Shown: in pieces, positions 20,567 through 36,748 of the stretch
Position numbering within the stretch: position 1 is the stretch's first letter
Layout: each line of letters starts with the position of its first letter
Notes under the pieces: generated by a model
Told to the model about the DNA's origin: nothing
The model's database searches: none
Seen by the model: the letters and a program-made list of their open reading frames with translations, nothing else
Origin: Clostridia bacterium
Lineage (GTDB): Bacteria > Bacillota > Clostridia > Oscillospirales > CAG-272
DNA length: 52,790 bases
NCBI GenBank assembly: GCA_017466445.1
Contig: JAFTUC010000019.1
Span: 24,001-76,790, forward strand
Reading direction: 5' to 3'
Program-made: the position numbers and the translations under genes

Positions 20567-21370
20567 TTATTTTTCGAGAAGGTTTGCGATGATGTAGTCA
20601 GCGCTCTTTTTGTTGACCTCGAAGGATCTGCCCTCGGGGCATCTGTCGTCCTCGACGACGAAATACTTGACTCCGCATCTTTCGGCGGTGGGAATGATGT
20701 CCTTGAAGTTGATGTTTCCTGCGCCGATCTCGATGATCTCGGGTGCCTCGAGAGTCCATCCCGCAACGAGAGGATACTTGTGACATGCCTCCATGTCCTT
20801 GAGATGGAGAATGTCTATTCTTCCTGCGAGACGCTCGATTGTTGCGCGTACGTCAGCACCGCCGTGCTGCACCCAGTATGTGTCGAGAACGAAGGAGGTG
20901 CATACGGGATCAAGCTTTTCTACGAGATGATCGAAGATCGTCTTGCCGTCAGAGCACTTCTTAAACTCGAAGGAATGGTTGTGATATGTGAGCTTGTATC
21001 CGCGCTCGTGATAGATCTTTGCAGATGCGTTGAACTCGTCGATGAACTTGTTAAGCTCCTCAAGGCTCTCTCTGGCGGGAATGGGCATTCCGCCGATACC
21101 GATATTGGTCGTGCCAAGGGCCTTGTGATAAGCGATGGTACCCTCGACGTCATTCTTTATAGCATCGAAGCTGTAATGGGTTCCGCAGAAGCTGATGCCT
21201 GCATCGCTTGCCGCCTTTGCGAACTCATCGGGAGTCATGTAAGAATAGGCGCCTGCGGTGTGGACGTAAGAATATCCCATCTCGGCAAGAGCCTTGAAAG
21301 CCGCCTTGGTGTCCTCTGCGTTTGTAAAGTGGTCGCGTACCGAATAAAGCTGTATTCCAAACTGTTTCAT
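20567..21370 (-). CDS. Sugar phosphate isomerase/epimerase family protein (xylose isomerase-like TIM barrel)
   Basis: 267 residues of the AP endonuclease 2 fold used by IolE, IolI and hexulose epimerases. Begins QFGIQLYSVRDHF. Likely metal ligands and active-site residues lie in GYKLTYHNHSFEF, SFVLDTYWVQHGG (Asp), DILHLKDME (His, Lys) and KYFVVEDD. No signal peptide. Own promoter and terminator, so monocistronic, although it lies next to the nagB end of the large operon. Reaction unknown: isomerase, epimerase or a dehydratase of the inosose type are all possible. Confidence 0.85.
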   Translation of the reverse strand: MKQFGIQLYSVRDHFTNAEDTKAAFKALAEMGYSYVHTAGAYSYMTPDEFAKAASDAGISFCGTHYSFDAIKNDVEGTIAYHKALGTTNIGIGGMPIPARESLEELNKFIDEFNASAKIYHERGYKLTYHNHSFEFKKCSDGKTIFDHLVEKLDPVCTSFVLDTYWVQHGGADVRATIERLAGRIDILHLKDMEACHKYPLVAGWTLEAPEIIEIGAGNINFKDIIPTAERCGVKYFVVEDDRCPEGRSFEVNKKSADYIIANLLEK

Positions 21371-21536: not shown

Positions 21537-21608
21537 TCACTGAGTGCTGTAAAGCTTTATATAGTCATATACTGTATTTATAAGCTCCTTGCCGTTATAG
21601 AGATCGGC
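21537..21608 (-). pseudogene. nagB: In-frame 23-codon continuation of nagB after its TAA
   Basis: Directly behind the nagB stop (21609-21611) the same frame continues for 23 sense codons, reading ADLYNGKELINTVYDYIKLY and then STQ before TGA at 21537-21539. It is amphipathic and looks like a normal C-terminal helix, so the TAA seems to interrupt an originally longer protein (about 289 residues). Confidence 0.6.
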
Positions 21609-22406
21609 TTAAAACAGACCGTCAGCTACAGATTCGTAAGCGCAGAAGGTCGTATTCCCATGATTTTGAAGGAGGGAAGCGGGAATCTGAGGGGTGGGAG
21701 TATCGCGAAGCACGTGCTTTACGATTCCGTGCTGCCAATCGCGGTTGAGGGCGATGTAGATCCTCTTGGAGCTCAGAATAGGCTTCATCCCTACGGTGAT
21801 GCACCATTTTGGCATACCGCGAAGGTCTCCGCGCTGATATCCGTAAGCGTTTATCGTCTGCGTCTCACGGGAGATGGGAAGAACTCTCGTGCCAAGATTT
21901 GCGTATTCTTCTGCGGTGATACTGTCACCTGCTTCGGCAGGCTCGTTGAAGGCGATATGTCCGTTGATTCCGAGACCTCCGAGGCAAAGATCGACGCCAC
22001 CGAGACTATCGATAAGCTCATCGTATTCCTTCTCCTTGCCGGGCTCGGGGAATTTGCGCTGAGATTCGGGCATCAGAAGCTCCTTGTCTACTCTTGAATA
22101 AAACTCGTCCTGCATGCGTTTGTGGAAGCTCATTTTGTTGTTGAAATCGATCTGAGTATCGGGAGTTATCAGATATTCGTCCATGTTAAAGAACCAAACG
22201 TTCTTAAGGGATACTCTGAGCTGATTTACGAGTCTTGCAAGTATCGGATACTGATTTGTAGGGCCGACAGGTACTATCATTACGGTCTTTTTGCCGTCGG
22301 CGTTGTTTTTCATGATTTCTTCGAGCATAACGAGAGCCATGTCGAAATATACGTCCCACTCTGTCGCTACGGTCTTGAAGGTTATGTTGTTAACTTTGGT
22401 TTCCAT
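21609..22406 (-). CDS. nagB: Glucosamine-6-phosphate deaminase / isomerase family protein
   Basis: Converts glucosamine 6-phosphate to fructose 6-phosphate and ammonia. 265 residues of the NagB/SugarP-isomerase fold: TVMIVPVGPTNQYPIL (phosphate loop), VWFFNMDEYL (catalytic Asp in the MDEY motif), and GGLGINGHIAFNEPA (active-site lid His). Last gene of the nine-gene operon, 6 bases after nagA. The frame continues for 23 plausible codons past the TAA, so the product may be cut short. The substrate could be another amino sugar phosphate. Confidence 0.88.
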   Translation of the reverse strand: METKVNNITFKTVATEWDVYFDMALVMLEEIMKNNADGKKTVMIVPVGPTNQYPILARLVNQLRVSLKNVWFFNMDEYLITPDTQIDFNNKMSFHKRMQDEFYSRVDKELLMPESQRKFPEPGKEKEYDELIDSLGGVDLCLGGLGINGHIAFNEPAEAGDSITAEEYANLGTRVLPISRETQTINAYGYQRGDLRGMPKWCITVGMKPILSSKRIYIALNRDWQHGIVKHVLRDTPTPQIPASLLQNHGNTTFCAYESVADGLF

Positions 22407-22412
22407 TTTGTT

Positions 22413-23585
22413 TTATTTTCCTTTCTGAATTATATTTCCGTCCAGTATCAGATCGATAAGCTCGAAATTTGCATTGAGAATACATATGTTTGCTCTCTTG
22501 CCGACCTCAATGCTTCCGATCTCCTTGCCTTTGCCTATGATCCTTGCGGGCGTGAGCGTTCCCGTTTTAACGGCGTCCACGATCCCGATACCCGCATCTA
22601 TAAGATTTTTCACCATCGCCCGTACGGGAGTGATGCTTCCCGCATATTTTGTACCGTCAGCGGTCACGGCAACTCCGTCGCCTATCCTGAACAGCTGTGC
22701 GTCATCGCCTGAACCGAGCTTGTAGAGTCGGTCATCCTTTTCAAAGCCGGCGCACCTGAGCGAGTCGGAAACCACAGCCACCCTGTCCGCTCCCTTTGCT
22801 CTTATTATAAGTCTTGCAAGCTCGGGCGGAATGTGTCGGTCGTCCGCGATTATTTCGGCGGTGAGACTGTCGTCTGTAAGTGCGTATTCGCGCAGACCCA
22901 CGTTTCTGCGTCCGTCCTTAAAGCGAAGCTCACTCATAGCGCAGTACAGATGGGTAAGGTGAGACATTCCCGCCCCGATTGCGGGCATAAACTCGGGATA
23001 TATTCCGTCGTCGTGACCTCCCGAGACTACGATCCCGACATCTGTCAGGGCCCTTGTCATTTTATCGGCACCCGGAAGCTCGGGAGACAGGGTAACGGTC
23101 CTTATTATGTCCGCGTAATTTAGAATATAGGAATAATCGTCCTTGTCGGGGATGGCAAGATCCTCTTCCTTTTGAGCGCCTCTGTTTCTTTTTGAGAGAT
23201 ACGGTCCTTCAAGGTGAACACCTGCGATGAGCCTTGACTCTCGCGCGCCCGATCTAAGATATTCCCTTGTAAAGTCAAGGAAGGAGATTATGCTCTCCCT
23301 CGGTGCGGTACACGAGGTCGCGACAACAGAGGTGGTACCGTTGTCAAGATGGAATCTGAGTGCGTCGGAAAATGCCTCGGGCGTGGAATCCATAAAGTCG
23401 GCACCGTATCCACCGTGGGTGTGGATGTCCACAAAGCCGGGAGTCAGATACATTCCCTTGGCGTCCAAGGTATCGGTGTCCGAAAGATCCCTGCCGATGC
23501 TTTGAATCGTTCCGCCTTCTATCAGAATATCCGCATCATCCGTTATTTTTTCGGGAGTTATGATTTTTGCGTTTTTTATAACCAT
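22413..23585 (-). CDS. nagA: N-acetylglucosamine-6-phosphate deacetylase
   Basis: Removes acetate from GlcNAc-6-phosphate to feed NagB. 390 residues, amidohydrolase fold. The short N-terminal beta domain leads into YLTPGFVDIHTHGGYGADFMD (metal HxH), then GVHLEGPYLSKRNRGAQ with the metal Glu and the family signature. GMSHLTHLYCAM carries the later metal His, and AVVSDSLRCAG the catalytic Asp. The usual length is about 380. RBS AGAGGA. 29 bases after the PfkB kinase and 6 before nagB. GalNAc-6-phosphate cannot be excluded as substrate. Confidence 0.95.
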   Translation of the reverse strand: MVIKNAKIITPEKITDDADILIEGGTIQSIGRDLSDTDTLDAKGMYLTPGFVDIHTHGGYGADFMDSTPEAFSDALRFHLDNGTTSVVATSCTAPRESIISFLDFTREYLRSGARESRLIAGVHLEGPYLSKRNRGAQKEEDLAIPDKDDYSYILNYADIIRTVTLSPELPGADKMTRALTDVGIVVSGGHDDGIYPEFMPAIGAGMSHLTHLYCAMSELRFKDGRRNVGLREYALTDDSLTAEIIADDRHIPPELARLIIRAKGADRVAVVSDSLRCAGFEKDDRLYKLGSGDDAQLFRIGDGVAVTADGTKYAGSITPVRAMVKNLIDAGIGIVDAVKTGTLTPARIIGKGKEIGSIEVGKRANICILNANFELIDLILDGNIIQKGK

Positions 23586-23614
23586 AATTATCCTCTGCTT
23601 TGCTTGTCATACGG

Positions 23615-24517
23615 TCAGCTTTTTTTATCCGAAAGCAGACCTTTTGCTATTTCCATATTCAGGTCGTATCCGCGCGCGCCAAGGTGAAGGCACTTGTATG
23701 CGGCTACGGCACTTGCAAAATCACAGCACTCGGCAATACTCATATTTTCACAGTATGCCGCTATAAACGCGCCGTGAAAGGTGTCGCCTGCGCCGTTTGT
23801 GTCGATCGCCTTGATGCTACTACTGTCGTAGTGACATACCGAGCCGTCAGCGTAATAATATCCGCCGTTTGCTCCGTCGGTCACGACGAGGATCTCGGGA
23901 AAGTAGCGCCTTTGCAGCTCGAGAAGGGCAGATGCGACATCGTCCTTTCCCGTGATCCCCTTTGCAAATTCCGCAGAGGGGATAAGGATGTCGACGAGCG
24001 GTAAAAGCTCTTCTATTCCGTTATATAGACCGCCTGCGTCCAAACTCACCTTGACGCCCGCTTCTTTTGCGTACTCGGCGGCCTTGACAGCGCATTTTAT
24101 ATAGTTTCCGTCGAGATGAAGTACCGACGCGCCGTCGATCGCTTTGTATTTTATGATCTCGGGATCGTCAGGAACGCTTCCTCTGTCGAAAAGGCAGGTT
24201 CGGGTGCCATCCCTTTCCGAGATTATCACGTGCGAGACAAACGAGGATGCACCGCTGAATGTGGTAGTATTATCAATCCCTATCCCGAACGATCTGAGCT
24301 CCGATAGGATCTTTTCTCCCGAGGAATCATCGGCAAAGCTGCCTATCATCTCGACACTGAGTCCGAGTTTTGAAAGGACCACGAGCGCGTTGCCGACCGG
24401 ACCGCCGCCGCAAACGGATATTTTGTTTACCTTCATTTTAGTGTCTTCTTTGGGAAAACTCTCACATTTTATGAGTGTGTCAAGAACGTTCGCTCCGAGT
24501 CCGACTATTTTTTTCAT
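23615..24517 (-). CDS. PfkB-family carbohydrate kinase
   Basis: ATP-dependent kinase, 300 residues, ribokinase fold. KKIVGLGANVLDTLIKCESFP opens the sheet, VCGGGPVGNALVVLSKLG is the first PfkB signature, and AIDTNGAGDTFHGAFIAAY is the second, with the catalytic Asp and anion hole. ATG at 24517 overlaps the aldolase stop (ATGA) and has AAGGGGAAGG upstream; a longer frame from 24574 would lie inside the aldolase gene. Next to a class II aldolase it probably makes the aldolase's phosphorylated substrate (tagatose 6-phosphate or 5-dehydro-2-deoxygluconate are the main options). Confidence 0.92.
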   Translation of the reverse strand: MKKIVGLGANVLDTLIKCESFPKEDTKMKVNKISVCGGGPVGNALVVLSKLGLSVEMIGSFADDSSGEKILSELRSFGIGIDNTTTFSGASSFVSHVIISERDGTRTCLFDRGSVPDDPEIIKYKAIDGASVLHLDGNYIKCAVKAAEYAKEAGVKVSLDAGGLYNGIEELLPLVDILIPSAEFAKGITGKDDVASALLELQRRYFPEILVVTDGANGGYYYADGSVCHYDSSSIKAIDTNGAGDTFHGAFIAAYCENMSIAECCDFASAVAAYKCLHLGARGYDLNMEIAKGLLSDKKS

Positions 24518-25341
24518 GCCTTCCCCTTTGCTCCGAGAAGCTCGATCTTTGAGATCGCAAAGCTCTTTACACATTCGATAGGCTCTCTCATAAAGAGATC
24601 CACCGCGTATATTTTTCTGTCTACCTCAAAAACTCCGTCAAGGAAGGAGTAGCAGATGTCGGTGCCGAAATTGATCTTGCGAATTCCCGCTTCGATAGCG
24701 AGTCTTATCTGATCGTCGGGAATACCGCTTCCTCCGTGAAGAACGAGCGGAGTGCCGACTTTCTGCTTGATCTCTCTTATCCTGTCTATTGCAAGCTTCG
24801 GAGCCTGCTTGTATCTTCCGTGAGCCGTTCCGACCGCAACGGCAAGAGCGCTGACGCCGGTAGCTTCTACGTATTTTTTTGCCTCCTCTACGGTCGTGTA
24901 ATCGGTGGGAACACCGTCTGCGGCAGAGCCGATGTGACCGATCTCACCCTCAACTCCGATGCCCATCGCTGAAAGAATCTTTACCGCCGCTGCGGTCTTT
25001 TCGATGTTTTCGTCAAGTGAAAGAGCGGAGAAATCGACCATTATACCCGATGCTCCGTTTCTCAGCGCGATAGATGCCGCCTCGTAGCCCGCACCGTGGT
25101 CAAGATGCATGCAGACCGGAACGGATGCCATTTCTGCCGCCTTGAGAATGATGGGCGCAAGATAGTCGGAAACACCGGTGGTCGCAAGCCTCGAATAGAA
25201 CTGCATTATAACGGGAGAGCGAGTCTCCTCCGCCGCTTTTATAACGCCCATTACCGTTTCCATATTGTATACGTTAAAGGCGGGGACGGCGTATCCGCCC
25301 TCGTCGGCATTTTTGAGAATAGTTTGTAAATTCACTAACAT
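24514..25341 (-). CDS. Class II (zinc) ketose-bisphosphate aldolase
   Basis: 275 residues. Cleaves a ketose phosphate to dihydroxyacetone phosphate and an aldehyde. Zinc and active-site motifs: AVPAFNVYNMET, CMHLDHGAG, GVEGEIGHIG, AVGTAHGRY, LVLHGGSGIP and KINFGTD. The family includes FBP, tagatose-1,6-bisphosphate (KbaY/GatY) and IolJ aldolases, and motifs alone do not tell them apart. ATG at 25341 was preferred because GGAG stands six bases upstream; the ATG at 25353 would place that site inside the gene. The stop overlaps the PfkB start. Confidence 0.93.
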   Translation of the reverse strand: MLVNLQTILKNADEGGYAVPAFNVYNMETVMGVIKAAEETRSPVIMQFYSRLATTGVSDYLAPIILKAAEMASVPVCMHLDHGAGYEAASIALRNGASGIMVDFSALSLDENIEKTAAAVKILSAMGIGVEGEIGHIGSAADGVPTDYTTVEEAKKYVEATGVSALAVAVGTAHGRYKQAPKLAIDRIREIKQKVGTPLVLHGGSGIPDDQIRLAIEAGIRKINFGTDICYSFLDGVFEVDRKIYAVDLFMREPIECVKSFAISKIELLGAKGKA

Positions 25342-25374
25342 CTTGATCTCCATTCTGTCGCTAAGGGCGACGTT

Positions 25375-26742
25375 TTAATTGTCTGAAAATAAATTTTTTA
25401 TATCTTCGATTATACCGTAGTCGCTGTAATCGAAAATTCTTGCGTTTTTGTCCGAATTTACGGATATTACCGTTCCCGCACCCGAGATCCCCGAGGTGTG
25501 CTGGACCGCACCGGATATTCCGAATGTCACGTAGACCCTCGGAGAGACCGTCTTTCCGGTAAGTCCTACCTGATAGGAATAGGGCATGACACCGGCGTCA
25601 CAAACGACGCGGGAGCACGCAAGAGTCGCGCCGTACACATCGGCAAGCGCACGGATCCTTTCGACGTGTCCTACAGCGCCTCTTCCAACTGCGAAGATGA
25701 TATCGCTTTCCGATGCCTTGCTGCTGCGAACGGTCGCAAAGGACATAGGCGATCTGCTTGCTATGTCGGCGGTAACGTTTCCTCCAAGAGCGGGGCGGGT
25801 CATTATAAAGGTGTCTCCGTCTCGCCGAAATGAGATGCAGTCGGCGCATATTCCGGCGCCCGTGATGACCGCTACCCGGGATGCGAGCTGCCGATGCCAT
25901 TCGGAGGCCTCGAAGAGCACCACCTCAGCACCGAGATCTGTCAGCTCCCTTGCGATCTCATATGGAGCTTTGCCGCCCGAGTCGAGCCTTATCGCTTTTT
26001 CGGAATATTTTTCGGCGATGTCCCCGATATTTCCGAAATAATATATCTTTTCCGTTTTTTTGACGGTGGCATCGTTTGAGCTCTTTTTGGGAGATGAAAG
26101 TCCTTTTTTGATCAGACAGTCAAGGCTTTCAAGCGTCTCAAAGCTGCAGCTTCGCCTTCCGACCGAGCTTTCATAGGACCGTATCACCCTCGTAGGCGAT
26201 CCGACAGTACCGCACCTGCTTTTATCAAGCGAAAGCAGAGAGTTATCCCAGATCTCGACAGTACCCTTTTTTGAAAAGATAGAAGGGAAGCGCAGAGATC
26301 TTATGCGCTCAAAGGTCACTATTGCACAGTCTGCAAGAAGGGCGCTCTCGCCGCTTCTTGTCCTGATATTGCCATCGCAAAAGTCCATAACTCCCGAGAT
26401 CACGCTTATTCCGAGATGCTCAGCGAGCATCGGAGGAACCTGACCCGTGTCTCCGTCGATGCTTTGTCTTCCTGCGAAGATAAGATCGGGAGAAAGTCTT
26501 TTTATAGCCTCGGAAAGCAGGTAGCTTGTTGCCTGAGTATCGCTTCCCGCGTATAGAGGATCGGATATAAGGATCGAGCGAACGCCGAGCCGTGTGAGGT
26601 TTTCAAGCACGGGAAGAGCAGAGCGGGGAGCCATCGACAGAGCCGTCACGTCTGCACCCCATTCAAGAGCGCATTCGAGTGCGGACTCATCGAAGGGACT
26701 TATTTCTCCGCCGGAAATTTTGATAAGTACCGTGACCTTCAT
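25375..26742 (-). CDS. Fused electron transfer flavoprotein, EtfB-EtfA in one chain
   Basis: 455 residues. Residues 1-225 are an EtfB-like domain: MKVTVLIKISGGEISPFDES, PDLIFAGRQSIDGDTGQVPP. After a Ser/Lys-rich linker, residues 235-455 are EtfA-like: GGNVTADIASRSPMSFATVR, VGRGAVGHVERI, then the FAD-binding QVGLTGKTVSPRVYVTFG and GISGAVQHTSG. Normally these are two genes; the fusion fixes 1:1 stoichiometry. It should accept electrons from the FAD dehydrogenase and Fe-S protein encoded at the head of the operon. It lies one base after the FGGY kinase. Whether the EtfB half keeps AMP or a second FAD cannot be told. Confidence 0.93.
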   Translation of the reverse strand: MKVTVLIKISGGEISPFDESALECALEWGADVTALSMAPRSALPVLENLTRLGVRSILISDPLYAGSDTQATSYLLSEAIKRLSPDLIFAGRQSIDGDTGQVPPMLAEHLGISVISGVMDFCDGNIRTRSGESALLADCAIVTFERIRSLRFPSIFSKKGTVEIWDNSLLSLDKSRCGTVGSPTRVIRSYESSVGRRSCSFETLESLDCLIKKGLSSPKKSSNDATVKKTEKIYYFGNIGDIAEKYSEKAIRLDSGGKAPYEIARELTDLGAEVVLFEASEWHRQLASRVAVITGAGICADCISFRRDGDTFIMTRPALGGNVTADIASRSPMSFATVRSSKASESDIIFAVGRGAVGHVERIRALADVYGATLACSRVVCDAGVMPYSYQVGLTGKTVSPRVYVTFGISGAVQHTSGISGAGTVISVNSDKNARIFDYSDYGIIEDIKNLFSDN

Positions 26743-26743
26743 T

Positions 26744-28198
26744 TTAATCCTTCAGATCGGAAAGGAATTTTCCGATTTTTTTGTATTTTACGAAAAGCTT
26801 TTCATATTTTAACGTGTTTTCGGGGATCGGCCGGGTCTCTCCCGTTATTTTCTGAGTGTGAGCCTTGGCATCGTCAAGATCCTTGAAGTATCCGATCGCA
26901 ACTCCCGCGCACATGCATGAGCCGAGCGAGGAATCGTTTCTTTCGGTCACGACGAGCGTGAGACCGAGAGCGTCGGCAACTATCTGACGCCAAAGATCGC
27001 TTTTTGCTCCGCCGCCGATGGCGAACGCTCTTTTTCCGAGCATAAGACCGCGTTCCTCCAGATAATTCTTGCAGTCGAGAAGGCTCATCGCCACTCCCTC
27101 CATTACCGCTCTCGCAAAATGAGCCTTGGTATGAGAGGCGCTGAATCCGATAAAGCTTGCGCGCATGCTCGGGTCCGCGTACGGAGTAAGCTCGCCCATA
27201 AGGTGGGGATTGAATACGAGTCCGTCGCATCCGATCGGTATCTTTTCGGCAAGCATATCAAATTCAGTGTAATCGCCGCCAAATGTGTCTCTGAACCATC
27301 TCAGGGATGATGCGCAGGACTTTGTTGCGGCGCCCGGATAGCAAAGTCCGTCCTTTAGGTGTGAGTAATTCACGATGTTACGGTCGGGACAAAAATCCTC
27401 CGAGATCACGCATATGCGTCCTGCGGTGGCAAGCTTCAGGGTAACGTCTCCCTTGCTTGTCGCTCCTGCCGCAAGCACCTCCATTGCGGTGTCGGTGGCT
27501 CCGCATATGACCGTAGTACCTAGTTTGAGTCCCGTGTCGCGTGCCGCATCCTTTTCCACCTTGCCGACCACGCTGAGAGGAGATACTATCTTGGGCATGA
27601 AATCTCTTGTAAGTCCGGCAAGAGAAAGCAGGGTGTCGTCCCAATCGCGTTTGTCAAGATCAAAGAGCATGCTTCCCTCTGCCTCAATGTGATCGGTGAC
27701 GAGATCTCCCGTGAATTTTCCCCGTACGAAGTCCTTTGCAAAGGTGACCCTTTTTACTCTTGAAAAAACTTCGGGATAACTGTTTTTTATGAACATTATT
27801 TCGGGAAGTGACCATATAGTGTCAACGTAGTGCTTGCACTTTTCGAATATCTCCTCACCGAATTGGGATTCCAGATATTTTTTCTCACCGACAGATCTTG
27901 TGTCCGTCCAGTATACCGAATTGCATACGGGATCGCCTTTTTCGTCAAGGAGCACCGCCGTGTGGGTCGCCGCATCAAAGCAAAGGCACTCGATAAGAGA
28001 AGGATCGATGCCGCTGATGACCTCACGGATGTTTTTAACGGCGGCAGAGTACCAATCCATCGGATCCTGCTCTGCCATTCCGCCCTCACCGTAGAAGGTC
28101 GAATATTCGGAGGTGGCAGTTCTCACGACCTCGCCGTATTTGTTCATAAGCGTCGCCTTGCTTGCGCCGCCGCCAAAATCCACGCCTAAAACGTACAT
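26744..28198 (-). CDS. FGGY-family carbohydrate kinase (xylulokinase-like)
   Basis: 484 residues, the usual FGGY length. The N-terminal actin-like domain has LGVDFGGGASKATLMNKYGE (phosphate 1) and CFDAATHTAVLLDEKGDPV. VICGATDTAMEVLAAGA carries the catalytic Asp region, and the second domain has RAFAIGGGAKSDLWRQIVAD, the ATP-binding signature. Sugar specificity is not readable. Lies 13 bases after the iolB-like gene and one base before the Etf fusion. The operon has two kinases of different folds, so two phosphorylation steps or two entry points are likely. Confidence 0.93.
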   Translation of the reverse strand: MYVLGVDFGGGASKATLMNKYGEVVRTATSEYSTFYGEGGMAEQDPMDWYSAAVKNIREVISGIDPSLIECLCFDAATHTAVLLDEKGDPVCNSVYWTDTRSVGEKKYLESQFGEEIFEKCKHYVDTIWSLPEIMFIKNSYPEVFSRVKRVTFAKDFVRGKFTGDLVTDHIEAEGSMLFDLDKRDWDDTLLSLAGLTRDFMPKIVSPLSVVGKVEKDAARDTGLKLGTTVICGATDTAMEVLAAGATSKGDVTLKLATAGRICVISEDFCPDRNIVNYSHLKDGLCYPGAATKSCASSLRWFRDTFGGDYTEFDMLAEKIPIGCDGLVFNPHLMGELTPYADPSMRASFIGFSASHTKAHFARAVMEGVAMSLLDCKNYLEERGLMLGKRAFAIGGGAKSDLWRQIVADALGLTLVVTERNDSSLGSCMCAGVAIGYFKDLDDAKAHTQKITGETRPIPENTLKYEKLFVKYKKIGKFLSDLKD

Positions 28199-28211
28199 AT
28201 TCTTCTCCCTG

Positions 28212-29000
28212 TCAGCTGACCGTCCACTTGTGGCATTCCTCGGATGAGCTGAGGAGACCGCGCTTCTTGCCTGCCATTATCCACAGACAGTAGTTTTTGT
28301 ATCCGGGAGCGACGGTGAAGGGATGATATCCCTTGGGAATAGCCACGAAATCTCCGTTTTCTACCTTGTAAACCACGTCGATGTCCTTTTCGGGTGTGTA
28401 TACAGCCTGAAAGCCAAAGCCCTGCGGCTTGTCAAATTCATAGTAATATATTTCGTCGAGCGCACCCTCTCTCGGAAGATCGTCAACATCGTGCTTGTGA
28501 GGGGGATAGCTTGCCCAGCTTCCGTCCTCTACCCAGAATTCGCCTATGTAAAGGTGGTTTGCGTCTACCGTTTCGGGAAAGGTGAAGGCGACCTCGCGCA
28601 CGAATGCGCCCTTGCCGAAGGTCTTTGTTGCGACCTCGTCCTTCTTTATCTGATAGGGAGCGTAATATTTTTCGGCGGGAGCCTTGCATACCGCTATCTT
28701 CACCTCGCCGCAGGCGGTGACGGTAAAGGGGGTGTCCTTTCCGATGTATGCGCTCTCTGCGGCACCGTCGAATACGTTTTCTCTGCATCCGACCTCGTCA
28801 AAGCAGAAGCCCTCTCCGCAGATGCGGCATTTTCCGTATAATACCACGAGAACGAATTCCTTGCCCGGCTCATCGACTATGTAGCTTTTTCCGTCCTCAA
28901 GCTTCAGCATATCCGCCTCTGCGTAGTAAAGGGAGGAATTTTTGCTTGTAACTACTCTTTCGTATCCGTATTTTTCGGTATATACTTTTTTAAGATCCAT
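28212..29000 (-). CDS. iolB: 5-deoxy-glucuronate isomerase (IolB) family protein
   Basis: 262 residues, bicupin. In myo-inositol catabolism IolB turns 5-deoxy-D-glucuronate into 5-dehydro-2-deoxy-D-gluconate. The match is clear from GSWASYPPHKHDVDDLPREG (metal His residues; IolB typically has NWSSYPPHKHD), then LDEIYYYEFDKPQGFGFQ (metal Glu) and VAIPKGYHPFTVAPGY (third His). No iolG, iolE, iolD or iolA homologue lies in this operon, so either only the lower part of the route is here or the substrate differs. RBS AGAGGTAG. Confidence 0.9.
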   Translation of the reverse strand: MDLKKVYTEKYGYERVVTSKNSSLYYAEADMLKLEDGKSYIVDEPGKEFVLVVLYGKCRICGEGFCFDEVGCRENVFDGAAESAYIGKDTPFTVTACGEVKIAVCKAPAEKYYAPYQIKKDEVATKTFGKGAFVREVAFTFPETVDANHLYIGEFWVEDGSWASYPPHKHDVDDLPREGALDEIYYYEFDKPQGFGFQAVYTPEKDIDVVYKVENGDFVAIPKGYHPFTVAPGYKNYCLWIMAGKKRGLLSSSEECHKWTVS

Positions 29001-29018
29001 TTTTTCTACCTCTTTTTA

Positions 29019-30095
29019 TCACATATTTTCGAGAAGCATTTCCTCTACGGTTATTACACGGTATCCGTCGGGGCAGCTTGCTTTGAGAGCGAGATATTCG
29101 TCGGGATTTTCGGTGACAAGAGTCTTGCAACCCATATTGATAGCATTCTGCCATCTTCCGAGGGCGACGTCTCTCATTACCTTGGGCATATATTCAGCCA
29201 TTATGAGATGACCCGCAAGATTTGCCTCCTTGCCGATGAGAAGCATTTCACGTGATACGCCTGCCGCGTTTATAAGAGCTCTGCCGCTTTCGGTATCGTC
29301 AAGCTCGCGCGCGTAAGCGTAGCTGTCCTGAAGGGTGTACTCGGTGCTTCCCTTGATTACCTTTATCTTACCACATTTTATAAGGGATAACAAGTACTCG
29401 TTAAAGGAAATAAGCTCGGCGGATATCTCGATCCCCCACTCTCTGTATTCGTGGCGGATAAACGCCAGATCGCAGGGATCGTAAACAACGATCTTTCTGT
29501 ATTTGTTTGCATGCTCCGCAAATGCCCTTGCGGCATTCTGTGTTTCCTGAGTTTTGCCACTAAGGAACCACATCTGAAGGCCCGTGTCCTGAATTTTTGT
29601 AAACGCCGCCTTTTCTCCTGCGGAGGATATGAGCGAGAGCGCGCGGGCTACACATTCGGGAGCCCTTAGTGAGGCGCTTGCTCCTGCAAGAAAGAGCAGA
29701 TCGTCGCCGTCCGAATAAAGTGCTTCAAGCTCGCTCGGCATTTCCATTCCGTATACGTTTCCGTACTGCATATATTTCTCTATAAGGGAAAGTATGTAGT
29801 CGGGAGCAAGACCCGAAAGAACTATCTCGGTCTTTGTCTCCTGAACGAAGACCTTTGGATCAAATCCGGTCATGCAGTTGTTGGTGCAGGCACCGCAAAG
29901 CGTGCATTCGTAGATGTTGTCGACCACCTCCGAAAGCTCGGTCGATCCTCTTTCTACCATCGATATGGCAAACGAACGGGCTCTTGCGGTGTTCCTCTCC
30001 TGACCGGTAGCGTTTCCTATGGGGCATATGTGTCTGCACATCCAGCAGAATCTGCAGTTGTCGATTATGTTTTTTGCATTTTTCGTTACGTTCAT
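29019..30095 (-). CDS. Iron-sulfur protein with two [4Fe-4S] sites (GlcF/HdrD-like)
   Basis: 358 residues. The N-terminal ferredoxin-like part has CRFCWMCRHICP (residues 16-27) and CTLCGACTNNCMTG (residues 64-77), each a CxxCxxCxxxC cluster site. The rest resembles the Cys-rich CCG-domain region of GlcF/LutA-type proteins but is degenerate: only YDPCDLAF recalls a CCG motif and no second one is obvious. It probably passes electrons between the FAD dehydrogenase encoded 13 bases upstream and the Etf fusion. Soluble, no membrane helix. Confidence 0.85.
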   Translation of the reverse strand: MNVTKNAKNIIDNCRFCWMCRHICPIGNATGQERNTARARSFAISMVERGSTELSEVVDNIYECTLCGACTNNCMTGFDPKVFVQETKTEIVLSGLAPDYILSLIEKYMQYGNVYGMEMPSELEALYSDGDDLLFLAGASASLRAPECVARALSLISSAGEKAAFTKIQDTGLQMWFLSGKTQETQNAARAFAEHANKYRKIVVYDPCDLAFIRHEYREWGIEISAELISFNEYLLSLIKCGKIKVIKGSTEYTLQDSYAYARELDDTESGRALINAAGVSREMLLIGKEANLAGHLIMAEYMPKVMRDVALGRWQNAINMGCKTLVTENPDEYLALKASCPDGYRVITVEEMLLENM

Positions 30096-30108
30096 TTTTT
30101 GCCTCCCA

Positions 30109-31533
30109 TTACAGACCGAGCTTGTACGGATTCATGATCCCGTTGGGGTCAAGAGACCTTTTGATCCCCTCAAAAACCTGCATAGCGGGACCGTACTGCT
30201 CCTTCATCATTCTTCCGAGCTTGATTCCCACGCCGTGATGATCGTTGACTACGCCTCCGTTAGCAAGCGCTGTCCTGATTCCGAGCGTCCAGATCTCGTT
30301 GTGAAGACGCATGGCCTCTACGGGATCCTCGGGTACGTACTCGCCATCGATTATAAATCTGTCGTACATCATGGCACCCCACTCATACCAGTGTGAGAAG
30401 TGTGCGATGAATTTTGCGTAGGGATATTTGGTCTCGATCGCTTCCTTCATTGCCCAGTATATCTTCTCGATCTTGTCGTAAGGAGCGATAGTGTCCATCG
30501 TTCCGAACATCTGAGGAATGTCCATCATATGTCCGGGATAGAAGAAGGTTATCTTTTCATTCCACCATTTTTCTCCGTATTCGCTGCCAAGATCCTCGGC
30601 TCCGTACTTAGAGAAGGTGTCAAGCAGGATCTTTTCCTCGACGTCAACGAGCTCCTTTACACCCTCGTACGCTATGTTCATAAATGCGCCCGGCTTTGAT
30701 ACGCCTACTATCTTCTTTATAAGGCTGGCGGTCTCCGCTTCGTCGTAAAGACGCATGACCGAGGGCTTGAACTTTTGAAGCACCTCGCGGGATGCGTTGA
30801 AGGCGGAGGTCATATCCTTGAAGAGGAAGCCTCTGAATCTGCGGACCTCGGGCTGCTCGAAAATACGGATCTGTGCCTTCGTGATAACGCCGAGCGTTCC
30901 CTCCGAGCCTATGAATATCTGGTTGAGGTCGGGGCCTGCGGCGTGCTTGGGGGTTGCCGAGGTGTAGATTATGTCGCCGTTTGGCAGAACTACCTCCATC
31001 TGGAGCACCATGTCGTCGATCTTGCCGTATTTTGTGGATACGACTCCTATGCCTCGGTGAGCAAGGAAGCCGCCTACAGTAGAGCAGGTGAGAGAGGAGG
31101 GGTAGTGCATGGTCGCAAAACCCTTCTCGTTTGCCGCCCACTCTATGTGCTTGTATATTGCACCCGTGCCGCACTCGATGTACATGCCCTCGGTGTTGAC
31201 CTCGTAGATCTTGTTCATTCTTTTGGTGTCGAGAATGATCCCGCCCGCTACGGGAATAGCACCGCCCTGAGAGCCTGCACCGCCGCCCCACGTTGTGACC
31301 GGTATCTTGTAATAGTTTGCTATTTTCAGTACCTTTGAGGTCTCCTGTGCGTCGGCGGGAGAAACTATAAAATCAGCCTCAGGCATTCTTCTGCCTCTGT
31401 CGACCCACATTCTGGAAAGCCAGAAAAAGTCGGCGCTGTGAGTAGCCTTGTCGATTTCCTTGACCGAACAGTTTTCTCTGCCAACGGCATCCTCAAGCTC
31501 GGTCAAAATCTGTGTAAACAAAAAGTCGTTCAT
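30109..31533 (-). CDS. FAD-linked dehydrogenase, GlcD / alkyl-DHAP-synthase-like (PCMH/VAO fold)
   Basis: 474 residues. The FAD-binding PCMH domain has EADFIVSPADAQETSKVL, VTTWGGGAGSQGGAIPV (pyrophosphate loop), TVGGFLAHRGIGVVSTKYG and QIFIGSEGTLGVITKA. The C-terminal cap has VNDHHGVGIKLGRMM and LDPNGIMNPYKLGL. This family oxidises 2-hydroxy acids (glycolate, D-lactate, D-2-hydroxyglutarate) or makes ether lipids. Linkage to Fe-S and Etf genes favours a dehydrogenase. ATG at 31533 has GCGAGGTG upstream; a GTG two codons earlier lies within that site. First gene of the nine-gene operon, under the RpiR-type regulator. Confidence 0.9.
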   Translation of the reverse strand: MNDFLFTQILTELEDAVGRENCSVKEIDKATHSADFFWLSRMWVDRGRRMPEADFIVSPADAQETSKVLKIANYYKIPVTTWGGGAGSQGGAIPVAGGIILDTKRMNKIYEVNTEGMYIECGTGAIYKHIEWAANEKGFATMHYPSSLTCSTVGGFLAHRGIGVVSTKYGKIDDMVLQMEVVLPNGDIIYTSATPKHAAGPDLNQIFIGSEGTLGVITKAQIRIFEQPEVRRFRGFLFKDMTSAFNASREVLQKFKPSVMRLYDEAETASLIKKIVGVSKPGAFMNIAYEGVKELVDVEEKILLDTFSKYGAEDLGSEYGEKWWNEKITFFYPGHMMDIPQMFGTMDTIAPYDKIEKIYWAMKEAIETKYPYAKFIAHFSHWYEWGAMMYDRFIIDGEYVPEDPVEAMRLHNEIWTLGIRTALANGGVVNDHHGVGIKLGRMMKEQYGPAMQVFEGIKRSLDPNGIMNPYKLGL

Positions 31534-31544
31534 ATGCACCTCGC

Positions 31545-31556
31545 GAAAATGGTTTT
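31545..31556. promoter_or_regulatory. Candidate RpiR operator copy 1
   Basis: GAAAATGGTTTT, identical to the core of the palindrome at 31679-31695, lies in the leader just before the dehydrogenase ribosome site. Confidence 0.6.
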
Positions 31557-31583
31557 TATTTTTCTTTGCTTTGCTTTAAATGA

Positions 31584-31678: not shown

Positions 31679-31695
31679 ATGAAAATGGTTTTCAT
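31679..31695. promoter_or_regulatory. Candidate RpiR operator copy 2 (palindrome)
   Basis: ATGAAAA-TGG-TTTTCAT, a perfect 7-bp inverted repeat at the expected transcription start of the regulator, so autoregulation is likely. Confidence 0.7.
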
Positions 31696-31726: not shown

Positions 31727-32599
31727 GTGGGAAAGACTATTCTTAACATAAAGGTAAATTACGATAGCCTGAGCAAGACCGAGAAAAGGATCGCGGACTT
31801 TCTTATCGAGAACCCCGATAACATTCTTCCTCTGTATATAACAGAGCTTGCGGAGAGCTGCGGAGCGAGCGAGGCGACTATCGTCCGCTTTGCTAAAAAA
31901 TTCGGATTTGAAGGATATCAGCAGTTAAAGCTCGCTATAGCGAGGGAAGAGCATACGGCGCCGGTGAACGAAAACATCACTCCGAGCGATACGCCCTACG
32001 ATATTTTTACAAAGGTCTGCGACGACATATATTGCTCGCTTGAGAAAACGAAGAAGGCACTCGATCAAGAGGCTCTGCAGAGATGCTGTGACGCTATTCT
32101 TTCATCCGACGATATCATAGTGCTCGGTCTTGGAAATTCCGCTCCGATAGCAAGCGACGCGTCGCATAAGATGCTCAGGCTCGGACTTCGTGCTCATCCC
32201 TATACCGATAACCATATGCAGGCGATCGCTACGGCGCATGCAAATGAAAGAACGGTCGTAATAGGAATATCCCATTCGGGAGCATCCGAGGATATACTTG
32301 ACGCTATGCGCATAGCAAAAAGTGGCGGAGCCTTTACCGTCGCTATAACGAATTATCAGAAATCACCGATCGAGGCGGTAAGTGACGCTGTTCTTTATAC
32401 GGTGTCGGATGAGACAAATTACCGTATCCTCGGGCTCAGCTCGAGAATATCCCAACTTTCCATAATCGATACCATATATTCATATCTTGTCTGCCATATA
32501 GATAACGCTAGGGACAGTATCGCCAAAACCGAGGCGGCACTGCAGACCAAAAAGCATAACGAGAATAAAAAGCAGATAAAAAGACGGGATCAGTTATGA
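31727..32599 (+). CDS. RpiR/MurR-family regulator with SIS domain
   Basis: 290 residues. N-terminal RpiR HTH (1-80): KTEKRIADFLIENPDNIL, ITELAESCGASEATIVRFAKKFG. C-terminal SIS sugar-phosphate domain (about 115-250): DDIIVLGLGNSAPIASDASHKMLRLG, TVVIGISHSGASEDILDAM. It probably senses a phosphosugar of the divergent operon. The GTG start at 31727 is the second copy of an 8-bp tandem repeat; the first GTG (31719) is better placed behind AAAGGTG but out of frame. The Lys/Asn-rich tail is unusual. Confidence 0.92.
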   Translation: MGKTILNIKVNYDSLSKTEKRIADFLIENPDNILPLYITELAESCGASEATIVRFAKKFGFEGYQQLKLAIAREEHTAPVNENITPSDTPYDIFTKVCDDIYCSLEKTKKALDQEALQRCCDAILSSDDIIVLGLGNSAPIASDASHKMLRLGLRAHPYTDNHMQAIATAHANERTVVIGISHSGASEDILDAMRIAKSGGAFTVAITNYQKSPIEAVSDAVLYTVSDETNYRILGLSSRISQLSIIDTIYSYLVCHIDNARDSIAKTEAALQTKKHNENKKQIKRRDQL

Positions 32600-32858: not shown

Positions 32859-32887
32859 TTGACAATTCAACCTAATTGCTGTATAAT
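32859..32887 (+). promoter_or_regulatory. Perfect sigma-A promoter for the propeller gene at 32930
   Basis: TTGACA (32859-32864), 17-bp spacer, TATAAT (32882-32887). Both hexamers are exact. Confidence 0.9.
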
Positions 32888-32929
32888 ACAATCAATATAA
32901 TATCACACTCACACAGAGGATATATTTTT

Positions 32930-34330
32930 ATGAAAACAATGCTTTTTTTCGATGATCACCGTCTTTTCGGCCGTGACGGACTTTCCAGACGTTACGGAGA
33001 AGTAAAGCTCGAATCATCTTTCAGCGACGGATATACGAGCACAGATCACCCTGCCGCTTGGTGCTTTAAGACGGACGACGGGACTTACAAGCTTCTTTAC
33101 ATGGCTCAAGGAACTACCTACCGACATTTGAAGCTCTTCTGCTGCGTAAGTAATGACGGTATAAATTTCACACCCGCAAATCTTGCCATAGAAGGAACGC
33201 AGTTTGATCATGAGATCCCTTTTCCGGCTCTCGATGCGCCCGGGTGCGAGATAGCCACCGTATACGAGGACAAGAACGCGAGCGATCCGTCTCTTCGTTA
33301 CCGCATGCTCTTTGCCCGCTACGACGACGCGAAGCTGAGATGCGAGGGCAACATATACTCCTCAGCCGATCTCATAAATTGGACTCTCTGTGAAGGCTCG
33401 TGGAGCGACGGAACAGAGCCTATCGCAAGCCTTTTCTACAACGAATACACAAAAAAATACACCTCCGTCCTTCGTCCCTTCTGGGGAATAAGACGTATAG
33501 GATACAAGACCTCCGAAAACATGTCCGATTTCGGAGAATTCAAAAACTGCCTGATCTCGGATGCGTGTGATGCACCGCTTGACGAGCTTTACGGAATGTA
33601 CGCCTTTGAATACGACGGAATGTTCATAGGCGCCATCCAGATCTACAGCGATCTTCACGGCGAATACAACGCAAAATTCCACAACGGAAGTATTTACACT
33701 CAGCTTGCTTATTCTTACGACGGCGAATACTGGATGAGAAGCCTGCGCACTCCCTTCATAAGCGGAAAAGACAGAAATCCCTCGCGTCCTCTTGCGTGGA
33801 CGTCCGGATCGATACGGCTTGACGACGGCGACCTTCTGATATACGGAACCTCCTCCGAGTACGAGCACGGCCCCGCATTCAGAATCTTAGGCACAGGACG
33901 CTTGGACGTTTACAGGGTAAGAAAAGACGGATTTGTAGCACTTTGCACCGAAAAAGGTGAAAGCGGATCTCTTATCCTGCGTGAGCAGCTTTGGAAGAGC
34001 GGCGAGATGCATCTGAATCTCAAAGCGGCAAAGGCTACCGTTGCCGTACGCTGCACAGATCACGATCCCGGAAACTGTCTTTCAATTTCCGAGCCGATAG
34101 AAGGATTTACGCACGAGGACTGCGTTCCCTTTTCCGGCGACAGCAAGGACTGGATCCCCACATGGAACGGCGAACGATCTATGAAGGATCTTGTGGGAAG
34201 GACTATCGTTATCGAGATACGAATCACCGATGGAGAAATCTACTCTATGCGCGGAGATTTTATCGATCTTTACAACACCGAGGCTGTTCGCTACCGTATA
34301 CTCGGCAAACTCCCGAACGACAGATCATAA
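32930..34330 (+). CDS. GH32/GH43-like beta-propeller protein with C-terminal beta-sandwich
   Basis: 466 residues. About 1-345 shows five propeller-like repeats with internal SSADLINW, YKTSENMSDFGEF, YSYDGEYWMRS and GSIRLDDGDLLIYG, as in GH32/43/68 superfamily proteins. The last 120 residues (GSLILREQLWKSGEMHLNLK...) resemble the beta-sandwich of GH32-type enzymes. Possible catalytic acids (FFDDHRLFG near residue 6, DAPGCEIATVYED) cannot be fixed. No signal peptide. ATG at 32930 has AGAGGATA upstream. Monocistronic between its own promoter and a terminator. Confidence 0.75.
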   Translation: MKTMLFFDDHRLFGRDGLSRRYGEVKLESSFSDGYTSTDHPAAWCFKTDDGTYKLLYMAQGTTYRHLKLFCCVSNDGINFTPANLAIEGTQFDHEIPFPALDAPGCEIATVYEDKNASDPSLRYRMLFARYDDAKLRCEGNIYSSADLINWTLCEGSWSDGTEPIASLFYNEYTKKYTSVLRPFWGIRRIGYKTSENMSDFGEFKNCLISDACDAPLDELYGMYAFEYDGMFIGAIQIYSDLHGEYNAKFHNGSIYTQLAYSYDGEYWMRSLRTPFISGKDRNPSRPLAWTSGSIRLDDGDLLIYGTSSEYEHGPAFRILGTGRLDVYRVRKDGFVALCTEKGESGSLILREQLWKSGEMHLNLKAAKATVAVRCTDHDPGNCLSISEPIEGFTHEDCVPFSGDSKDWIPTWNGERSMKDLVGRTIVIEIRITDGEIYSMRGDFIDLYNTEAVRYRILGKLPNDRS

Positions 34331-34792: not shown

Positions 34793-35575
34793 TTATTCCT
34801 TCCAAAGCTCTCTGCTAATATTTGGCGTAAGTTGAGCAAGCATTCCGCCGTCCACTACGATCTCTGCGCCCGTGGTATTGCGCGACGCATCACTTCCGAG
34901 ATACCATGCCGCATTGGCAACATCCTCGAAGGTAGCAATATCCTCGATCGGCGTATAGTTGGGCAGACAGTATTTTACATTGTTCACGTTCTGCTCCCAA
35001 CGTACCGTCTTTATCATACCCGGGAGAACACAGTTGGAGCGTATGCCGTATTTTCCCCAGTCTACGGCAAAAGATTTTGACATAGCGTTAATAGCGCTTT
35101 TGGAAGAGCAGTAAGCGCATCTGTTCTCGGTCACTCTTACCGAGGAGTGTGAGCCTATGAACACTATTGCTCCCTTGCCCTTTTCCTTCATCTGCTTTGC
35201 CGCTTCTCTTGCCATAAGGAAATTCCAGCCGATGTTGGTGGTATATACGCCCATAAATTCATTGATGTCAACATCAAGGCTTACTTGACCAATTCCTAAA
35301 TTGGCAGCATTCAAAACAAGGGTATCCAACAAATAACCGCTTGCTCTGATATCGTCGAAGATTGCCTTTACCTCATATTCGTCAAGTGTCACCGTCTGAT
35401 ATACATATCCTTTGGCAAATACACCGTATTTTTCGCATAATTTTGCCGCTGCCGAATCTGCTTTTTCTTTTTCGCGACTGCCTATAAACAGGTCGTACCC
35501 TTCTTTTGCGAAGCGCTCCGCAATGGCAAATCCGGTTCCGTCATGTGCCCCTGTTACAAAGACCGATTTTTTCAT
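34793..35575 (-). CDS. Short-chain dehydrogenase/reductase
   Basis: 260 residues, classical SDR. VTGAHDGTGFAIAERF is the NAD(P) loop, LVLNAANLG the NNAG-like motif, IVFIGSHSS carries the catalytic Ser, and YCSSKSAINAM is the YxxxK active site. GSREKEK after strand two, without a clear Asp, slightly favours NADP. In this operon it could oxidise galactose to galactonolactone or act on a keto-acid. 21 bases after the dehydratase gene, RBS AAGGAGA. Confidence 0.93.
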   Translation of the reverse strand: MKKSVFVTGAHDGTGFAIAERFAKEGYDLFIGSREKEKADSAAAKLCEKYGVFAKGYVYQTVTLDEYEVKAIFDDIRASGYLLDTLVLNAANLGIGQVSLDVDINEFMGVYTTNIGWNFLMAREAAKQMKEKGKGAIVFIGSHSSVRVTENRCAYCSSKSAINAMSKSFAVDWGKYGIRSNCVLPGMIKTVRWEQNVNNVKYCLPNYTPIEDIATFEDVANAAWYLGSDASRNTTGAEIVVDGGMLAQLTPNISRELWKE

Positions 35576-35596
35576 ATGTACCTATCTCCTTTTCAG

Positions 35597-36748
35597 TTAC
35601 CAATCCGCAACGCTGCCGTCCTCAAAATACTGACGGGGAGTTGTCCATTTACCGTTGTATATCTTTTCCTTGATTGCTTTTTCGTCAAGTTCAACACCAA
35701 GCCCCGGCTTTGTGGGAACATCGATATAGCCATCCTTGATGATAAACGGTTCCTTGATATATCCTACTCCCAAATCCCCTTTATCAGGATTACCCGGATG
35801 CTCTTGCACAAGGAAGTTTGGTGAGCATGCGTCAACCTGCAAGCAGGAAGCCAGGGAGATCGGTCCCAAAGGATTGTGAGGGGCAATGGAACCAAAATAA
35901 AGTTCCATCATAGTGGCTATCTTTCGTCCCTCAAAGATTCCTCCGCAGTGGCAGATGTCGGGCTGCACGATACTTACAGCCTGCTTTTCGATCAACTCTC
36001 TATACTGCCATTTTCCGAAAAGTCGCTCTCCCGCGGCAATCGGGATTGTTGTAGAGCGAGCGATGTTTGCCATGCAGTCTACGTTTTCGGGCAGACAGGG
36101 CTCTTCAATAAAAAACGGCATATAAGGCTTTAATTCCTCGGCAAGTCTGAGTGCCATTGCAGGACTTACTCTGCCGTGAAAATCAATAGCAAGGTCAACG
36201 TCCCAACCGATATGCTCTCTTATGCGAGCAAATCGCTCGACGTGCGCTTTGGTATTTGCAGGGGAATCCACCTGCTTGATAGGCGGAATGATAGAATACT
36301 TTAGCGCCGTATATCCGTCGGCAAGACGCTGATCTGCAATATCAAGCATTTCCTCGACCGAAAACTCGCCTACAACAGCAGTGCGCTTGATATGAGTGTA
36401 CATTCTGATCCTGTCACGGCATTTGCCGCCGAGCATTTCATATACCGGACAGTTGTAATATTTCCCCTTAATATCCCACATTGCTTGCTCGATACCGCTT
36501 ATGGCGGACAACATAAGCGGACCGCCGCGATAAAATCCACCTCGGTATAGTGCCTGCATATGATGCTCGATCATCATGGGGTCTTTGCCGATAAGATATT
36601 CCTCAAATTCCTTGAGAACAGCCTCCACCGCAGTACAATGCCCTTCAAGAACGGGCTCTCCAAGACCGTATATATCGGTATCGGTGTGCATCTTCAAAAA
36701 CATCCAACGGGGTCTTACTTTAATTACTTCAAGCTTCGTTATTTTCAT
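35597..36748 (-). CDS. dgoD: D-galactonate dehydratase-like enolase-superfamily enzyme
   Basis: 383 residues, matching DgoD over its whole length in my memory: KITKLEVIKVRPRWMFLKM, AALYRGGFYRGGPLMLSAI-type segment, DLAIDFHGRVSPAMA (metal Asp and catalytic His), PFFIEEPCLPENV and PIAAGERLF (metal Glu residues), APHNPLGPISLASCLQ (catalytic His), and the end WTTPRQYFEDGSVADW. It dehydrates galactonate to 2-dehydro-3-deoxygalactonate; other aldonates are possible. ATG overlaps the upstream stop by 4 bases. Confidence 0.9.
   Translation of the reverse strand: MKITKLEVIKVRPRWMFLKMHTDTDIYGLGEPVLEGHCTAVEAVLKEFEEYLIGKDPMMIEHHMQALYRGGFYRGGPLMLSAISGIEQAMWDIKGKYYNCPVYEMLGGKCRDRIRMYTHIKRTAVVGEFSVEEMLDIADQRLADGYTALKYSIIPPIKQVDSPANTKAHVERFARIREHIGWDVDLAIDFHGRVSPAMALRLAEELKPYMPFFIEEPCLPENVDCMANIARSTTIPIAAGERLFGKWQYRELIEKQAVSIVQPDICHCGGIFEGRKIATMMELYFGSIAPHNPLGPISLASCLQVDACSPNFLVQEHPGNPDKGDLGVGYIKEPFIIKDGYIDVPTKPGLGVELDEKAIKEKIYNGKWTTPRQYFEDGSVADW

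Follow-up and report, generated by a model that had tools for sequence, protein, structure and literature searches.

What could an electron transfer chain be doing inside a sugar operon? This question is raised by nine minus-strand open reading frames (ORFs) lying almost end to end at positions 21609-31539 of a 52,790-nucleotide stretch of DNA from a Clostridia bacterium (assembly GCA_017466445.1, contig JAFTUC010000019.1, positions 24,001 to 76,790 of the forward strand), hereafter called the window. The nine-gene set claimed by the first-pass annotation of this DNA is indeed present, and the family of each ORF is backed by Pfam and NCBIfam. A FAD protein (FADdh), a dicluster iron-sulfur protein (FeS) and a fused EtfB-EtfA electron transfer flavoprotein (EtfBA, or Etf) are encoded next to an IolB-type isomerase, an FGGY kinase, a class II aldolase, a PfkB kinase and two proteins of the NagA and NagB types. 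These genes contain a real, widespread and seemingly undescribed cassette. Its role may be that of a new anaerobic sugar-acid pathway, common in herbivore guts, in which FADdh, as a new type of enzyme wired to FeS and Etf, would perform the last step on a C3 phosphate resembling 1-substituted dihydroxyacetone phosphate (DHAP), either as a bifurcating phosphohydroxypyruvate reduction or as the cleavage of a C-S or C-O-sulfate bond; we regard this proposal as possible, the balance of probability being clearly against it.

The conservation of the gene set was examined across genomes. Strict peptide patterns, run against one genome for each species, identified 169 places encoding FADdh relatives, the best 80 of which (83-96% identity) constitute the loci described here. 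According to their titles, these originate mainly from metagenome-assembled genomes of Clostridia, Lachnospiraceae, Oscillospiraceae, Bacilli and Erysipelotrichaceae, and many titles point to gut samples of sheep, goat, cattle, deer, horse or buffalo. Core genes were counted in the 54 loci displaying at least 9 kb of downstream sequence, the 26 too-short loci being dropped. Matches were obtained with tblastn at 1e-12, so that the counts for short or divergent genes represent minimum values; only complete, stop-free copies entered the alignments. Beside FADdh, genes for FeS, IolB and FGGY were matched in 54/54 loci and those for the aldolase, PfkB and EtfBA in 53/54. Such a co-occurrence of the six other genes is more than chance, and the unity of the seven-gene core as one module is well supported. 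The other genes are optional: an arabinose/fucose-isomerase-like gene was matched in 33 of the 54 loci, DUF4867 in 21, an aldose epimerase in 15, and NagA and NagB in 9 each. The neighbourhood was not split into two unrelated operons in the relatives, and the single operon proposed in the first-pass annotation stands as far as the core is concerned; nagA and nagB come and go and are therefore accessory to it.

Two alternative front ends can be distinguished in the 48 of these loci that also possess upstream sequence. The isomerase alone is found in 29, nagAB alone in 6, both in 1 and neither in 12, with a Fisher p of 0.008, uncorrected for relatedness. In a 43-member tree built from the concatenated core (node support not displayed), the 8 nagAB carriers are scattered over at least 4 places, so that several changes of front end have probably taken place on one back end. 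FADdh is carried by 14 of the 295 genomes of the window's order, and FADdh or a distant relative by 8 of 398 genomes in the phylum. When the flanking genes were clustered, any transporter or glycosidase was confined to 4 of the 80 loci at most, and no EtfBA relative was found in viral contigs.

The nature of the FAD protein was addressed by comparing a 3-copy FADdh profile to solved structures. The best matches were obtained with alkyl-DHAP synthase, or AGPS (2uuu, 1.8e-43; 4bby, 2.7e-40), followed by D-lactate dehydrogenase (1.6e-32) and LctD (7qh2, 6.1e-28). The stretches AHFSHWY and NDHHGVG are present in 80/80 FADdh sequences, as in AGPS, while GDGNxH and GEHG, which we take to be parts of the 2-hydroxyacid dehydrogenase metal site (GHxGDGNxH / GEHG), are present in 0/80. 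Judged by these features FADdh is AGPS-like rather than LctD-like, and the earlier suggestion that an LctD-like enzyme oxidises a 2-hydroxy acid in this operon is not borne out. The patterns common to AGPS and FADdh (AH-SH-Y--G and HHGVG) extend beyond the cassette: HHGVG and SHxYxxG, kept in all 80 sequences, are also found in distant relatives, five of which (33-34% identity) retain AGPS-type motifs and adjoin an Fe-S gene. Pairs of this kind, made of an AGPS-like FAD protein and an Fe-S gene, were observed outside the cassette at L176, L177, L178, L179 and L180. FADdh differs from AGPS in that it is bacterial, has 476 residues and shares its operon with Fe-S and Etf genes; no ether-lipid gene was seen in the cluster. 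The locus also recalls LctBCD, the Etf-linked lactate dehydrogenase, where a FAD_binding_4/FAD-oxidase_C protein lies beside EtfB and EtfA; the cassette departs from it by its AGPS-like FAD protein, its fused Etf, a separate dicluster Fe-S protein that is always present and its sugar-operon setting. A structure model of FADdh was too poor for use, with a predicted local distance difference test score (pLDDT) of 44.

The median identity of FADdh among 43 members amounts to 90.9% (903 pairs), compared to 55-77% for its six partners. At four-fold degenerate sites FADdh differs at 0.60 and the partners at 0.64-0.68. Because these sites are nearly as diverged in FADdh as in its partners, purifying selection fits better than recent transfer, and recent horizontal spread is thereby lowered as a cause of the conservation. 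The electron carriers are preserved to different extents. The eight cluster cysteines of FeS are kept in 74/74 copies. A stretch of the GRQxxxGDTxQ type occurs in 53/55 fused EtfBA sequences; in the corresponding pattern GRxxxDGDTxQ, presumably the EtfB motif of bifurcating Etf, the Asp is kept in 26 of them and replaced in 27.

The residues observed in the sugar enzymes bear on the possible substrates. IolB and NagA exceed their NCBIfam cut-offs (238 bits against 205 for the equivalog TIGR04378, and 235 against 226 for TIGR00221), whereas the NagB-like protein reaches 102 of the 237 bits of TIGR00502. Two residues of E. coli NagB, R172 and K208, are presumably phosphate-binding. Their positions are occupied in the NagB-like proteins by Tyr or Phe (12/12) and by Gln or Asn (11/11), compared to Arg/Lys in B. 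subtilis NagB and Lys/Lys in another NagB paralogue of this genome; the own-genome NagB L183, represented by a wrong fragment, was left out of the comparison. This genome also encodes a NagB over the cut-off (259 bits), with one internal TGA. As both phosphate residues are replaced, the C6 group is probably not a phosphate, which lowers ordinary catabolism of N-acetylglucosamine (GlcNAc) 6-phosphate, and a 6-phosphate in general, as candidates. The phosphate pocket of NagB may here be partly filled by the aromatic residue, which would be compatible with a small group and was counted in favor of a carboxylate.

The nearest solved structure of PfkB is a sulfofructose kinase (1.8e-32, the next being at 5.1e-24). 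Its Lys46, kept in 56/56 copies, aligns with Lys27 of the kinase YihV, which we take to be sulfonate-binding; the position is a Glu in ketohexokinase. Among Lys27, Asn109 and Arg138, presumably the kinase residues of YihV, Arg138 is replaced by Asn in PfkB and Asn109 was not aligned. The solved structures nearest to the window aldolase are 8q58 and 8q57, which we assume to be sulfofructose-1-phosphate aldolases. A QxYxRL motif is found in 69/69 aldolase copies, and its Arg55 corresponds in the alignment to a Lys in 8q58 and to a Gly in YdjI. The isomerase of the other genomes was missed by the sequence search of solved structures, and its fold was therefore modelled: an arabinose/fucose isomerase fold was obtained, with a pLDDT of 91 and a template-modelling (TM) score of about 0.8. 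In NCBIfam it matches SftI, a sulfoquinovose isomerase, and nothing else (99.8 of 700 bits); the isomerases from two clusters that are likely sulfoglycolytic reach 391 and 205 of the same 700 and are thus under the cut-off as well. The base of the isomerase tree carries a support of 0.18 and is left unresolved. A search of this genome for the isomerase gave no match, which alone is no proof of absence. The invariant Lys of PfkB and the Arg of the aldolase, placed where the sulfosugar enzymes have Lys, suggest a pathway of the Embden-Meyerhof-Parnas (EMP) type acting on a sugar whose C6 carries an anionic group. Taken together, the NagB-like protein, PfkB, aldolase and isomerase point to a ketose whose C6 group would be anionic and other than phosphate, and the residues cannot decide between a carboxylate and a sulfonate or sulfate.

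On this basis a general scheme can be drawn, in which a C6-anionic sugar is cleaved and IolB, FGGY and FADdh act on the C3 product; it is advanced tentatively, at somewhat below even probability. We infer its reactions as follows. In the window, NagA and the NagB-like protein would lead to the C6-anionic ketose, a task that the arabinose/fucose-isomerase-like protein would fulfil in other genomes. PfkB would phosphorylate the ketose at C1, and the class II aldolase would split the ketose 1-phosphate into DHAP and tartronate semialdehyde, an acid aldehyde of three carbons. The entry of carbon into glycolysis through the aldolase, anticipated in the first-pass annotation, agrees with the families of these enzymes. 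IolB may then convert tartronate semialdehyde to hydroxypyruvate and FGGY hydroxypyruvate to phosphohydroxypyruvate, from which FADdh, with electrons delivered via FeS and the fused Etf, would form 3-phosphoglycerate. Each gene is thus given a job, and the conversion of a hexuronate to two pyruvates would be redox-neutral. This carboxylate version is doubtful as a whole. With regard to the substrate class, a uronic acid is most likely, possibly an N-acetylhexosaminuronic acid in the window variant, and a sulfo-sugar is the main rival.

AGPS binds a DHAP-type phosphate, and the resemblance of FADdh to it was counted in favor of an action of FADdh on a DHAP-like C3 phosphate. Counted for the general scheme were the persistence of the seven-gene core and a glycerol kinase gene (616 of 498 bits) that follows the distant FADdh-FeS pair at L179. 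Three operons contain a gene for an AEC-type carrier (Pfam was run on one), and a divergent cluster, L175, has a DctP-type tripartite ATP-independent periplasmic (TRAP) system; both were counted for acid transport. An N-acylglucosamine-2-epimerase relative in L093 (372 of 600 bits) would fit mannosaminuronate.

A number of observations weigh against this scheme. Several of the nearest relatives are sulfosugar enzymes, and neither front end is present in the 12 loci mentioned above. The position of Lys46 is also a Lys in the uncharacterised kinase 2rbc, and a 14-sequence aldolase profile ranks YdjI, which has a neutral residue, level with 8q58. In L175 (FADdh at 56% identity) the TRAP system lies beside FADdh, FeS, aldolase, IolB and FGGY genes, no PfkB or EtfBA match is found in the 35 kb read and the aldolase lacks QxYxRL; L174 (FADdh at 70%) holds nagA, nagB and the core, but EtfBA had no match over the 34 kb read there. 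Given that two of the three divergent clusters (L174/L182 and L175/L181) show no EtfBA match in the stretches read, and given the lack of PfkB and of QxYxRL in L175, neither Etf nor the C6 residues occur in every case. Finally, UxaC, of the ordinary uronate isomerase family, is encoded by 37 of the 50 carriers, as the genomes of 50 of the 80 loci are called here, by 170 of the 295 genomes of the order and by this genome as well. The cassette therefore does not replace the usual uronate route, and its candidacy as such a replacement is lowered.

The nearest relatives of several enzymes lend themselves to a sulfo-EMP-like explanation, in which cleavage of a C6-sulfonated or sulfated sugar would yield DHAP together with sulfolactaldehyde (or glyceraldehyde sulfate) as the product that IolB and FGGY would convert to a 1-substituted DHAP, and FADdh, kept reduced by FeS and Etf, would displace sulfite or sulfate in a final C-S or C-O-sulfate cleavage. 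AGPS displaces a fatty acid, and its chemistry, the displacement of a group at C1 of DHAP, was counted in favor. The closest solved relatives of PfkB and of the window aldolase and the SftI match of the isomerase speak for this explanation, as does an Ldh_2-family protein of L048 whose best match is L-sulfolactate dehydrogenase (245 of 500 bits). All sulfo matches are nevertheless under their cut-offs, the Arg138 of YihV is replaced in PfkB, and no abundant N-acetylhexosamine with a C6 sulfonate is known to us that would serve the nagAB variant. A sulfoquinovosidase-type gene, searched with a query over the cut-off of PRK10426 (which we take to be YihQ, sulfoquinovosidase), was matched in 1 of the 50 carriers. 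In the order, by comparison, 31 of the 295 genomes have a match, but not one of the 14 FADdh carriers does; sulfoquinovose is accordingly lowered as a substrate. DUF4867, with its 21 of 54 loci, was counted for this explanation too: in the available portions of the sources it occurs in sulfoglycolytic clusters (PMC11968277, PMC9594981) but is common as well beside other isomerase-FGGY sets (PMC11968277). Overall, this explanation is considered unlikely.

The first-pass annotation had favored an oxidation, in which FADdh, FeS and Etf would transfer to Etf, perhaps with confurcation, the electrons of a 2-hydroxy acid freed from the sugar; D-lactate or glycolate would be examples. FADdh shares its Pfam pair with GlcD and LctD, its best NCBIfam match is GlcD (195 of 568 bits) and an Etf gene adjoins. 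The MurQ family frees D-lactate, and a MurQ-like gene is indeed found in the operons of L027 and L093 (129 and 136 of 168 bits), but this amounts to 2 of the 80 loci. As the closest solved relative is AGPS and the dehydrogenase motifs are missing throughout, such an oxidation is judged quite unlikely, and lactate-dehydrogenase-like chemistry is the point at which the first-pass annotation agrees least with the data. A true lower inositol pathway, in which IolB, PfkB and the aldolase would take 5-deoxyglucuronate to DHAP and malonate semialdehyde and the remaining genes would have no link to it, is highly improbable. IolB exceeds its equivalog cut-off both in the window and in L079, but PfkB reaches 78 of the 300 bits set for IolC, and FADdh and FGGY remain linked to the core. 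The operon contains no other upper iol gene, as had been noted in the annotation, and no upper iol or malonate-semialdehyde gene recurs in the clusters, whole genomes not having been searched.

Returning to the scheme of a C6-anionic sugar, the cassette can be compared to the established pathways. With sulfo-EMP and sulfo-EMP2 (YihV, SqiA, SqvD/SftI, SqvB) it shares an isomerase, a ketose 1-kinase, a DHAP-forming aldolase and a presumed anionic-C6 sugar, as well as DUF4867 and aldose epimerase as extras; it differs by the addition of IolB, FGGY, the AGPS-like FADdh, FeS and fused Etf, by the lack of sulfoquinovosidase in 49/50 carriers and by the fact that no recurring sulfolactaldehyde reductase or exporter was seen. 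The myo-inositol lower pathway (IolB, IolC, IolJ) likewise combines an IolB equivalog, a PfkB kinase and a class II aldolase, whereas the PfkB of the cassette is far under the IolC cut-off and its operon is free of upper iol genes. In GlcNAc and N-acetylgalactosamine catabolism (nagA, nagB, agaI, kbaY), homologous deacetylase and deaminase-isomerase enzymes also feed a kinase and an aldolase; here, however, the NagB-like protein is without the 6-phosphate residues and the module is optional.

The statement of the first-pass annotation that no described pathway has this gene set agrees with the open-licence literature. Searches combining IolB, Etf and FGGY returned nothing on the set (inositol use by Anaerostipes was found instead), and none of the retrieved literature dealt with a fused Etf with AGPS in the rumen, with fructuronate or tagaturonate 1-phosphate, with Etf in sulfoquinovose desulfonation or with GlcNAc-6-sulfate catabolism. 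Such a cluster is unmentioned in the available parts of a 2026 review of sulfoquinovose catabolism (PMC12890257) and of a cow-rumen study (PMC13219744). If correct, the proposal would add a catabolic route, undescribed in that literature, to many uncultured Firmicutes of the herbivore gut and would provide a group of bacterial AGPS-like proteins with a function tied to Etf electron transfer. It might also explain the use of amino-uronic or sulfated sugars by these bacteria. With its extreme conservation in spite of diverged synonymous sites, FADdh would serve well as a marker gene, and this conservation deserves an explanation in itself.

The features of the locus are collected in Table 1. The FADdh ORF is listed from a GTG at 31539, with an in-frame ATG inside it at 31533, the end given in the first-pass annotation, and PfkB probably starts at its residue 20, where its homologues begin. 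A gene related to the RpiR-type regulator was matched in 30 of the 54 loci. The sequence GAAAATGGTTTTYA was found in 2 copies with 0.14 expected in the whole window, and the pair are possible operators.

Table 1. Features of the operon and of its immediate surroundings (window positions)
Feature	Position	Strand	Remarks
FADdh, AGPS-like FAD protein (FAD_binding_4 + FAD-oxidase_C)	30109..31539	-	probable start 31533; 476 aa
FeS, dicluster Fe-S protein (Fer4_8 dicluster)	29019..30095	-	Pfam
IolB-type cupin isomerase (KduI/IolB)	28212..29000	-	TIGR04378 cut-off exceeded
FGGY kinase, XylB/gluconate-kinase-like	26744..28198	-	under every curated cut-off listed
Fused EtfB-EtfA (ETF + ETF_alpha, one 455-aa chain)	25375..26742	-	Pfam
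Class II ketose-phosphate aldolase	24514..25353	-	QxYxRL invariant
PfkB kinase, nearest solved relative sulfofructose kinase	23615..24574	-	probable start 24517
NagA-type deacetylase, optional module	22413..23585	-	NCBIfam
NagB-like isomerase/deaminase without 6-phosphate residues, optional module	21609..22406	-	NCBIfam, residue alignment
TIM-barrel sugar-phosphate isomerase/epimerase-like gene	20567..21370	-	238 bases past nagB; operon membership uncertain
Divergent RpiR-type regulator (HTH_6 + SIS)	31727..32599	+	faces operon
Two GAAAATGGTTTTYA sites	31545-31558 and 31681-31694	.	between FADdh and regulator

Particular genes were also encountered at single loci. The MurQ-like proteins mentioned above are MurNAc-6-phosphate-etherase-like SIS proteins, encoded inside the operons of nagB-bearing loci (L027:17852-19588 and L093:16127-17809). 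A GH20-type beta-hexosaminidase gene immediately follows nagB in L033 (19876-21420). The Ldh_2-family 2-keto-acid reductase of L048 (15075-16196) is located after EtfBA, and similar genes are present in L046, L054 and L055. A protein of 671 or 672 residues is encoded between IolB and DUF4867 in L031 (13340-15355) and L040 (13334-15352); the L031 copy matches no Pfam family over cut-off.

Within the window, a 484-residue ORF (32876-34330, plus strand) stands beside the regulator and has no Pfam match at 1e-5. A short-chain dehydrogenase, a mandelate-racemase/enolase-type protein and a beta-lactamase-fold protein are encoded in a row at 34793-37431 (minus strand) and are perhaps a second sugar-acid set. 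Elsewhere in the window, a TOTE conflict-system protein with AEP-TOTE primase, helicase and PLD-like domains (43033-45906, plus strand) is adjoined by a Schlafen AlbA_2 / RecG-type protein (41732-43018, plus strand).

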